A DNA stretch of 27,500 bases from Salpingoeca rosetta (lineage: Eukaryota; Opisthokonta; Choanoflagellata; Craspedida; Salpingoecidae). The position numbers and the translations under genes were made by a program. The stretch spans positions 23,628 to 51,127 of the forward strand of contig NW_004754906.1 in assembly GCF_000188695.1 (NCBI RefSeq). Direction: 5' to 3'. Below are positions 165-7,730 of the stretch, in pieces; position 1 is the stretch's first letter, and each line of letters starts with the position of its first letter. Below the pieces are notes generated by a model. The model saw only the letters and a program-made list of their open reading frames with translations. It did not search any database and had not been told where the DNA came from.

Positions 165-3100
165 CTTTCAGTTCAAACGGATCAGCGATGGTGGAATGCG
201 CGCACTTGCAGTGGCTGTCAAGGACAACACCACCGTCACAAGACTCGAGTACGGGCGTGTATGTGTACATGTGGATTGCATGCGACCCGCGCCACTGAAC
301 CAGCAGCTATCGTCACGTGCACCGCCGCCATCATGCCATGTCATGTTCCTCGTGCTGCCTTCGCCCTTGTCTCATGACCAACCACCCCTACCTCCCCCTT
401 CTCCCACCCCTCCCACCATCGTGCTTTTTGGTTGTTGGCTACAGCCTGAGCAGCAACCACATCAGCCCCGAGGGCGCTGCGGCGTTGGCACAAGGGCTGA
501 AGCACAACAAGACCATCGCGCGGCTCAAGTGAGACTTGACACACCCCATGCATGGGAGAGAAGCGTCGTTGGCGTGTGTTGTGATTGCACAGCCCACGCC
601 CAGTTCATGGCTGAGCGCAATGCCACGCTGTGGCACAGCACACCTGAAGCCAGTGGCTGAAGCCAGTGTGTGATGGCAGTGTGTGATGTCAGTGTCCCCT
701 TCTACCCCCTTGCTTGCCACTCACGATCCCTCCCCCTGCTTCTCCTTTCCGTCGTTACCAATGACCACTGCGTTGCATGTTGACAGCTTGCACTGGAACT
801 CTCTCGGTGATGTCGGCGCTGTGGCGTTGGCAGACGCGCTGACGCACAACACGGCTGTCACGCAACTCAAGTGAGCGTGGACACACAGCTGTCATTCGAG
901 GCGGCTGCCATGCACTGTCTTTCTTGGCACCCACGTATGCGCATGTGTGATGGGTCAACAGCCCACGCCAGCAGCCGTGTTGACCTTCTCTCACCGCTCA
1001 TCTCCAATTCACCACGCACGTTCGTCTCGACCTGCTGTACCCTCTGCAGGTGACAACGGCGTGCACGTCCATCGGCCTCGAGGGCACTGTGGCGTTGGCG
1101 GAGATGCTGAAGCACAACACCACGATCACGGCTCTTTTGTGAGTGACCGCCACCCACGCGCACTTGAGGGGGGGGGGGGGAGCGTCAACGCCACCATCAA
1201 CAGCGCATACGTGTCCTGCTGTTGTGGTGCCAATAGCCCGAATGTGATTGTCTCTCTGATCGCACGCCTGCTCAGCCTTGTTCCGCTCACCCTGCGCCAA
1301 AATTGCATCCCCGTGCATCCCCGTCGTTGCTGCAGCTTGAGCGACAATTCCATTGGCGATGAAGGCGTTGTGGCGTTGTCGGAGATGCTGAAGCACAACA
1401 TGACCATCACATACCTCGTGTGAGTGGCTGCTCAGGAACAAGAGTGTAATTGGCATGTGCCTTCCCCTCGTTGACTAATGGCCTATGAACTGTTGAAAAG
1501 TGCGCGTGTCTGCTCATGTGACGAGTGTATAGCTGCTGCTTGCTCACTGTACCCATCTATTTCTCGTCCCTCCCACCATGTGCCTTCTTTGTGTGTGTGT
1601 GTGTGTGTGTGTGTGTGTGTGTGTGTGTGTGTGTGTGTGTGTGTGTGTGTGTGTGTGTGTGTGTGTGTGTGTGTGTGTGTGTGTGTGCGACTTGCTTCTA
1701 CAGCCTGGGCAACAACTCCATCGGTGATTTGGGCGCAAAGGCGTTGGCAGAGATGCTGAAGCACAACACGACCATCATGGAAATCCTGTAAGGGCTGAAC
1801 CATTCAAGCAAGTGGGTGTGTGTCATTGGCTCGCGCCATCTTGTTTGCCATGACAGGGGCTTCCTGTGTTGTGTGATGGTTCGTTTGGATGCTATGGTGT
1901 GTGTCCACCGTTAGTACGGTCGTATCGTGACCATCCACTTCACTCGAGCCATTCCACTCAGCCGCCAGCAACGAAGAGCTCGGTTCGAGCCAATGTCCAT
2001 TCATGCAATCCTCACTCATCACACGTTCATCTACCTGTTGCACGCAGCGTGTACACCAACTCCATTTCTCCGGTCGGAGGCGCCGCGCTGGGAGCTGTCA
2101 TGGACCAGAACCGCACACTCAAATGCATTTAGTATGTCAACAGTGTCCATATGTTTGGGAGGATCACATGCCTTTCGCGCACGAAGCTGGGGCCACCACC
2201 CATGCGCACTCCACGTGGATGCGAACGTGAATAGCTGTACTCTGTTTTCGCTTGCTTGCCTTGCACGGGCGTTCGTTCTTTCTCCGCAGAACACGCAGTG
2301 CTCACCCCCAGCCTGACTCGTGCTAACACCTCCACCCAGCATCGAGAAGAACTCCCCCGCCACCGCCCGCGCGTTTGGTGCTGCGCTGCCCGTCGACCGC
2401 AACATTGACACGGGTTCCTGGTCAGTGAAGAGAGCACGACTACGCGCGCTTTGGGTTGAATTGCTGGAGTCGGTTGCCCTCTCCACTGCAACTGTATTGC
2501 ATGCGTGTGTATTAGTTTGTGTCTGACCTCAATGCTTCGTGATGGGCGTGTCTCATCTCGTGTTCGACCGCAGGGACGATGATCCCGAAGGCAGAGCCGC
2601 CTACAAGGAAGCCCGTCAGGGGAAGAAGACTCAGCAACAACAGATGCTGTTCACTGCCTGCGAGAACGGTGACGTTGAGGCTGTGGCCTCACTCATTGAC
2701 CAAGACCATGCTCAAGTCAGCCAACAGGACAACCAGGTGTGTGTGTGTGTGTGTGTGTGCGTGTGTGTGTGTGTGTGTGTGGTTGCTGTTTGTGAGTTTG
2801 ACTGCAGCAAGCGCTGTCGCGTGCTCACCGCCTTTTCTGTGTTGCTCAATGCCACCAACCCACACAGGGCGATACGCCGCTACATGTCGCATGCAGACAC
2901 AACCAACCCGCCACTGTGAAGCTGCTGTTGGATAAGGGCGCAGACACGGCCATTAAGAACAGCAAGGTGTTGCTTTTTGAGACCGTTTGTCTTCACACCA
3001 CTGCAAACACCACCACCACTTCCTTATGCTGTGCGGTTCGTGTCCCCTCGCCTCACACTTGTCTCTTTCCGATGCCAGGGCAATACGCCGTACAATACAG

Positions 3101-7730: not shown

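Follow-up and report, generated by a model that had tools for sequence, protein, structure and literature searches.

A 5'-truncated LRR-ROC-COR-TIR gene of Salpingoeca rosetta belongs to a recombining family that may serve as a receptor repertoire

A stretch of 27,500 nt from the choanoflagellate Salpingoeca rosetta (NCBI RefSeq assembly GCF_000188695.1, contig NW_004754906.1, positions 23,628 to 51,127 of the forward strand), hereafter the window, carries a spliced gene that encodes leucine-rich repeats (LRR), ankyrin repeats (ANK), a ROC GTPase domain, a COR region, a TIR domain and a SAM-like segment in one reading frame. Taken together, the sequence comparisons tip the balance towards regarding this window gene as a 5'-truncated member of a lineage-expanded, intracellular LRR-(ANK)-ROC-COR-TIR-SAM family that would form a self/nonself (immune-like) receptor repertoire. 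This reading was based on the presence of about 35 loci or more, their enrichment near contig ends, mosaicism among the copies, exons that each encode one LRR, variability on the concave face of the repeats, retained GTPase motifs together with a retained glutamate (Glu) in the TIR domain, and a sister class with a PARP-like output. The genome searched comprised 54.38 Mb in 49 contigs; loci (L) and contigs (C) are cited by our own numbers.

The window gene was modelled as 15 spliced exons on the plus strand (165-7730; Table 1), which yield a product of 1429 amino acids (aa) with the terminal TGA as the only stop codon. AG acceptors were found at 15 of 15 exons and GT donors at 14 of 14 non-terminal exons, and the product ends in ...CCCLLM immediately before the TGA. 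The gene is incomplete at its 5' end, as the 10 kb upstream reads N throughout, up to the base preceding the window. One damaged LRR exon (1050-1138) was left out of the open model; it lies approximately 30 nt upstream of a G run and is either a decayed exon or an assembly error, and skipping it leaves the frame intact because the neighbouring LRR exons share one phase. The model, built from genomic sequence, could in principle have joined two adjacent genes, LRR-ANK and ROC-COR-TIR, by mistake, but this is very improbable: the AG/GT exons stay in phase throughout, the same order is repeated in the paralogues L061 and L062, a single match between the copies on contigs C34 and C24 reaches, introns included, from the final LRR exons of the tandem array as far as ROC exon b, and the gap from ankyrin exon c to ROC exon a is only 300 nt. 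An earlier reading of this DNA, made from the letters alone (the sequence-only reading), had proposed a single gene in the order LRR-ANK-ROC-COR-TIR-SAM, and the in-phase exons and the recurrence of their order in paralogues bear this out.

Pfam was searched with a 1401-aa model of the window gene that lacked the first exon. LRR_6 (6.8e-18), Roc (1.3e-15), Ank_2 and COR-A (values for the last two in Table 1) were all well over the cut-off, and the COR-B match was insignificant (0.19). COR lies directly C-terminal to ROC, and ROC-COR stands between LRR and TIR (in a model whose N-terminus is missing), a position relevant to comparison with Toll-like receptors (TLRs). The ROCO GTPase motifs were kept among the copies examined, with the P-loop in 26 of 26, G3 in 27 of 27 and G4 (TxxD) in 27 of 30. 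Because the exon order recurs in paralogues and the P-loop and G3 are kept in every copy examined, the domain set goes beyond chance. When a ROC-COR profile was compared with the PDB, all 22 matches at E<=0.01 were LRRK2 chains (best E 9e-4). Among the 18 Pfam families listed at E<=1, neither a kinase nor WD40 was found in the window gene, the TIR domain occupying the place of the kinase; NB-ARC and NACHT were likewise absent from these 18 families (the N-terminus being missing from the model), with ROC-COR present instead. The gene resembles LRRK1 and LRRK2 in combining ROC-COR with LRR and ankyrin repeats. It differs from them in having no kinase or WD40 and in the order LRR-ANK, the order in LRRK being ANK-LRR. 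For these reasons the proposal that the gene arose from an LRRK protein by exchange of the kinase for a TIR domain was not borne out, though the ROC-COR profile does match LRRK2. The companion proposal of a GTPase-switched, NLR-like receptor with a TIR output, using ROC-COR in place of NB-ARC, stands as a fair functional analogy.

In the 1401-aa model, TIR_2 was matched at 2.9e-4 (21.7 bits, under the 28-bit Pfam cut-off), and the TIR domain was accordingly assessed through the family. TIR sequences were joined from 26 paralogues (L019 and L040 were left out), and ten of these were submitted to Pfam. TIR_2 was recovered in 10 of 10 (best 3.5e-10) and TIR at best 6e-6, the window's own TIR_2 reaching 1.2e-5, again under the cut-off. 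In a PDB search with the profile of the ten TIRs, SARM1 TIR structures ranked best (E 6e-6), and the profile-PDB alignment placed the Glu of the CDNVLLEW motif on the Glu of SARM1 WVHKE, which we take to be the catalytic E642. CDNVLLE was present in 25 of the 26 joined TIRs, the exception, L045, being disrupted. The family profile and the conserved Glu together indicate that the TIR domain of the window gene is real, and they rule out a chance match. A single-sequence AlphaFold2 prediction for the TIR exon by itself was uninformative, with a predicted local distance difference test score of 40. SARM1 has the order ARM-SAM-SAM-TIR; the family described here is like it in its TIR profile, for which SARM1 ranks first in the PDB, in the conserved Glu and in the presence of SAM within the same protein, and unlike it in that SARM1 carries neither ROC-COR nor LRR. 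As a separate observation, a hydrophobic tail was noticed by eye behind the TIR exon of L040.

The window's own C-terminal exon had no Pfam match, SAM included. Thirteen family C-termini were found by similarity to that of the window gene, so that distant ones may be missed; L044 was excluded from the SAM test as short, and SAM_2 was matched in 9 of the 12 submitted, the window's among the 12 (best 2.1e-6). No SAM protein appeared in a PDB profile search. Of the domains that the sequence-only reading had named for a Pfam check, LRR_6, Ank_2, Roc and COR-A were recovered directly, whereas TIR fell under the cut-off and SAM was not matched in the window gene itself, both being found in its paralogues. 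The prenylation tether that it had also proposed holds for the window gene insofar as CLLM is its true C-terminus. CaaX motifs occurred at only 3 of the 12 C-termini with a stop codon seen (CLLM in the window gene, CVLL in L039 and CMLI in L052); prenylation is therefore a variant within the family and not its rule, and membrane tethering does not extend to the family as a whole. On this count, the model of a generally prenylated receptor was abandoned.

The search of the genome with the ROC-COR-TIR protein gave 71 matches, which we grouped into at least 35 loci, partial ones included; the count is a lower bound, as 53 of 120 candidates were scored. Stop codons and the ratio of nonsynonymous to synonymous differences (pN/pS) were assessed where the match covered 60% or more of the exon, with the duplicates L010, L025, L030, L059 and L061-L063 excluded. 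COR-exon stretches were stop-free in 30 of 30 cases and TIR-exon stretches in 26 of 27, and the median pN/pS was 0.09-0.33 across COR alignment columns 1-260 and climbed to approximately 0.95 in a linker. A pseudogene reading of the window gene was ruled out by its open exon chain and by the purifying selection in the family.

Copies of the family are mosaic. Twenty copies have every segment. When these were compared pair by pair, the identity of ROC exon a was almost uncorrelated with that of the first COR segment (Spearman 0.13), and the identity of the second COR segment was correlated with that of TIR (Spearman 0.68). In the tree of ROC exon a, 11 copies fell in one clade with 100/100 support; nine of them were represented in the TIR data, where forcing them together cost 170 log-likelihood units (approximately unbiased test, p 1.8e-76). 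For these tests, L045 and L040 were dropped from the TIR tree, and two short ROC rows were also left out. A junction can be followed in the copy on C34, whose LRR-ANK-ROC half has 87-90% DNA identity to the copy on C24, introns included, and whose COR-TIR half, beginning where ROC exon b ends, shares 85% identity with the window gene; over this second half the identity between the C34 and C24 copies drops to 77% and then to 71%. By these sequence comparisons, the LRR-ANK-ROC (sensor) and COR-TIR (output) halves have been swapped between loci, whichever copy is the recombinant. Long (GT)n/(AC)n runs were also noted in introns and flanks of the window gene (44-162, 3825-3928, 7259-7346 and others; 520 nt within the first 7.7 kb), and these might act as promoters of recombination.

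The LRR exons are 84 nt long with phase-2 introns, a result both of a scan of three genes, in which six lengths were tried, and of the full window model; repeats can therefore be added, lost or skipped without a frameshift. For the analysis of variability, 25 repeats were found and four of the C-terminal type were set aside, leaving 21 that came from five genes, including one of the PARP class. The repeat filter fixed positions 4, 12, 14, 18, 21, 23 and 24 and the 84-nt length, and missed the window exons 165-248 and 1704-1787. Among the 20 filter-free positions, entropy was highest at 2, 3 and 26 (2.6-2.9 bits), and most positions were near-invariant. The three positions fall in the xxLxLxxN stretch, which makes up the concave surface in LRR proteins. 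This pattern shows diversification at the sequence level; positive selection is not established, the ratio of nonsynonymous to synonymous substitution rates (dN/dS) being below 1. At the sensitivity used, upstream LRR matches were seen for 17 of the 35 loci of the TIR type and for 6 of the 9 of the PARP type; of the 137 LRR matches, 29 attached to neither type.

The PARP-like sister class comprises nine loci with 64-100% identity, in which the same LRR exon type as in the TIR class is used. Its search gave 15 matches, six of which were weaker (29-36% identical, other PARP-like genes) and were not counted. The Pfam PARP catalytic domain was matched over the cut-off in L084 (2.5e-7) and under it in L086 (1.2e-5) and L085 (3.8e-5); the L084 piece, searched against the PDB, returned nothing at E<=0.01. 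Eight of the nine loci have a contig end no more than 60 kb away (0.9 expected). As both enzymes are NAD users, the TIR and PARP outputs would meet on one metabolite. On the minus strand of C32 (752010-763335), an LRR array, a TIR-type match and a ROC-PARP gene were seen in succession, with ambiguous order and borders.

The TIR-type loci were also found near contig ends more often than expected: 11 of 35 lie within 50 kb (2.9 expected, binomial P 7e-5), 6 within 25 kb (1.5 expected, P 0.003) and 13 within 100 kb (5.6 expected, P 0.002). As a control, 29 mitochondrial-carrier matches were grouped by us into 16 loci, only one of which, that in the window itself, lies within 60 kb of a contig end. 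Only two contig ends carry TTAGGG arrays (C3 at its start, C8 at its end); short arrays also occur inside C1, C35 and C39. Passages of PMC4054682 describe S. rosetta supercontig ends without assembled TTAGGG as mostly sharing repeated regions, and ends with TTAGGG as lacking the shared genes. This description fits the contig-end pattern seen here, and the receptor family is a candidate for the content of these shared end regions, whose genes the same passages leave unnamed. Giant open reading frames (ORFs) at C9 and C11 were considered and rejected; at the C9 copy they are N runs read as open, and the same was assumed for C11.

Several observations weigh against the receptor-repertoire reading. 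The P values for contig ends are generous, since paralogues do not sample the genome independently and no distance had been set in advance; 24 of 35 copies are farther than 50 kb from any contig end. It is not established that contig ends are generally telomeres, N was present at 11 of 19 contig starts inspected, and no family locus lies within 60 kb of the TTAGGG arrays at the C3 start or C8 end. Exposed LRR sites have a dN/dS of 0.86 against 0.56 elsewhere by a crude method, and these positions were picked after the sequences had been seen, with seven others fixed by the search filter itself; moreover, some copies may be without LRRs or have very different ones. A frame break is present in the COR of L053 (two matches in different frames). 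Four of 30 loci stand outside the Glu count: the TIR stretch of L056 runs into N, L058 passes by eye from COR to SAM without TIR, and the TIR-like exons of L040 and L057 are divergent, with Asp replacing Glu in L057 (by eye). Part of this evidence would suit an ordinary signalling ROCO family (for example in the cytoskeleton, chemotaxis or the life cycle) that has been passively amplified, with mosaicism due to ectopic gene conversion and TIR as a scaffold. In many eukaryotes, gene families close to chromosome ends undergo expansion and recombination; most copies here are interior, and the dN/dS of the LRR exons stays below 1. We nevertheless judge this account unlikely, though deserving of serious weight, as the variability is focused on exposed LRR positions, the Glu is kept in nearly all joined TIRs and a parallel PARP class with a matching LRR exon type exists.

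For the receptor-repertoire reading, the anatomy and the evolutionary pattern are observed, and the steps of a mechanism are inferred by analogy with the families involved. The LRR array would bind a variable ligand, and the ROC-COR dimer would change state with GTP. SAM- or COR-driven clustering would then bring TIR domains together, and the clustered TIRs could cleave NAD or recruit partners, leading to growth arrest, death or signalling. Choanoflagellates eat bacteria, and the target could be bacteria, viruses or non-self cells. Receptors for allorecognition, mating or colony compatibility, rather than for microbes, would work by a like mechanism on a different target; a diverse, recombining repertoire would suit cell-cell discrimination of self and nonself equally well, and the failure to notice a signal peptide or a transmembrane segment in the 5'-incomplete model, on which no predictor was run, weighs little against it. 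Such a role is considered improbable. A fuller form of the receptor-repertoire reading is put forward tentatively, at a little less than even confidence: a combinatorial repertoire near chromosome ends, in which hypervariable single-LRR exons on a ROC-COR switch would recombine across loci and be coupled to interchangeable outputs that use NAD (TIR or PARP), an NLR-like arrangement built on ROCO.

The neighbouring ORFs in the window are ordinary and match a mitochondrial carrier, GPP34, ankyrin repeats and an SH3 domain (Table 1). No Rfam match at the gathering score and no tRNA was found in the window.

Table 1. Positions of the exons of the window gene, of neighbouring ORFs in the window and of three PARP-class genes elsewhere in the genome
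Feature	Position	Strand	Details
LRR exon 1	165-248	+	84 nt, phase-2 donor, AG/GT, in frame; first exon in window, 5' end of gene upstream in N
LRR exon	445-528	+	84 nt, phase 2; LRR_6
LRR exon	787-870	+	84 nt, phase 2
Damaged LRR exon	1050-1138	+	89 nt, frame-breaking with each of six AG acceptors tried; not in open model
LRR exon	1336-1419	+	84 nt, phase 2
LRR exon	1704-1787	+	84 nt, phase 2
LRR exon, C-terminal type	2048-2131	+	84 nt; similar exon in L061 and L062
Last LRR-region (capping) exon	2340-2420	+	81 nt; 79-80% identical in L061 and L062
Ankyrin exon a	2574-2736	+	Ank_2 1.5e-13
Ankyrin exon b	2868-2966	+	99 nt, symmetric phase 0
Ankyrin exon c	3079-3210	+	132 nt, symmetric phase 0
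ROC exon a	3511-3741	+	P-loop GQGRAGKT; Roc PF08477
ROC exon b	4023-4558	+	Variable linker and G3 DLGGQ
Large exon: ROC C-terminal half (G4 TFAD), COR-A, COR-B-like region, TIR start (KYDVFISYR)	4788-6362	+	COR-A 8.1e-17
TIR exon	6535-7234	+	Conserved Glu in CDNVLLEW
SAM-like segment, CLLM motif, stop codon	7461-7730	+	SAM_2 in paralogous segments, not in the window's own
Neighbouring ORF, mitochondrial carrier	8125-8562	-	Ordinary
Neighbouring ORF, GPP34 (Golgi phosphoprotein 3)	11252-11833	-	Ordinary
Neighbouring ORF, ankyrin repeats	24002-24688	+	Ordinary
Neighbouring ORF, SH3 domain	26072-26494	+	Ordinary
L084, LRR-array ROC-COR gene, PARP-like domain replacing TIR	C25:24938-30500		Near contig end; Pfam PARP
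L085, LRR-array ROC-COR gene, PARP-like domain replacing TIR	C29:54029-59500		Near contig end; Pfam PARP
L086, LRR-array ROC-COR gene, PARP-like domain replacing TIR	C36:16186-21500		Near contig end; Pfam PARP

The LRR-ROC-COR-TIR architecture is not new in kind, having already been published for bacteria and sea anemones. Passages of PMC8195603 describe a bacterial conflict system of LRR-AP-GTPase(ROC)-COR-effector proteins, in which TIR is among at least 24 effectors and several paralogues with differing effectors occur in one genome. The present family is like it in having fast-evolving N-terminal LRRs, ROC, COR and a variable C-terminal effector, with a TIR class and a PARP-like class on the same core, and unlike it in being eukaryotic and intron-rich, with an ankyrin insert, a SAM tail, about 35 TIR-type and 9 PARP-type loci and recombination between copies. 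One scan for prokaryotic relatives with two peptide patterns gave 43 stretches, none of which was confirmed. In sea anemones, Novel Gene 1 (NG1) is described in passages of PMC5094078 as LRR-Roc-COR-TIR_2, with TIR_2 and GTPase domains noted also in bacteria, oyster and Trichoplax; compared by description, its core domain content is as here, and no ankyrin or SAM is named in those passages. For Aplysia, passages of PMC9334734 report ROCO domains in TIR proteins, TLR-like ones among them, and a TPR-ROCO-TIR protein of Chondrus is described in passages of PMC11378527. The latter source, citing Zambounis 2012, also describes brown algal LRR-ROCO candidate immune receptors with one LRR per exon, phase 2 and LRR-exon shuffling. 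One LRR per exon in a single phase is found here too, the last LRR-region exon being 81 nt; the brown algal exons are 72 nt and LRR-ROC-COR is their sole domain structure in the passages of PMC11378527 concerned, whereas the exons here are 84 nt, the output is TIR or PARP-like and half-genes are exchanged.

Among choanoflagellates, passages of PMC6040629 describe TLRs, Kinase-TLRs and Kinase-TIRs, as well as NACHT-LRR proteins. The first three are like the present family in joining LRR and/or TIR with direct signalling domains and unlike it in that ROC-COR is not part of them as described; 'roco' and 'LRRK' are absent from the main text of that source, to which this statement is limited. A single ORF on C24 (L002/L014, 705142-710640) with a Rab-like GTPase, a PH-like domain, a protein kinase and a TIR domain was observed separately and resembles the Kinase-TIR class. 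The sequence-only reading had known of no characterised protein with the full order; the core LRR-Roc-COR-TIR is in print, and the full order including ANK, SAM and CaaX was not found in the searches of the open-licence PMC literature. The family itself, its mosaic copies, its placement near contig ends and the PARP class were out of reach of that reading. In the same literature, no choanoflagellate ROCO family with half-gene exchange, contig-end preference and a PARP counterpart was found, nor any report of a large, recombining choanoflagellate receptor repertoire akin to the NLRs of plants and animals.

Genome editing is established in S. rosetta, according to the part of PMC7314544 that describes it, and the function of the receptors is therefore directly testable. 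If the receptor-repertoire reading is confirmed, the sister group of animals would have evolved NLR-like diversification on another GTPase switch, that of ROCO proteins with outputs of the TIR and PARP kinds.

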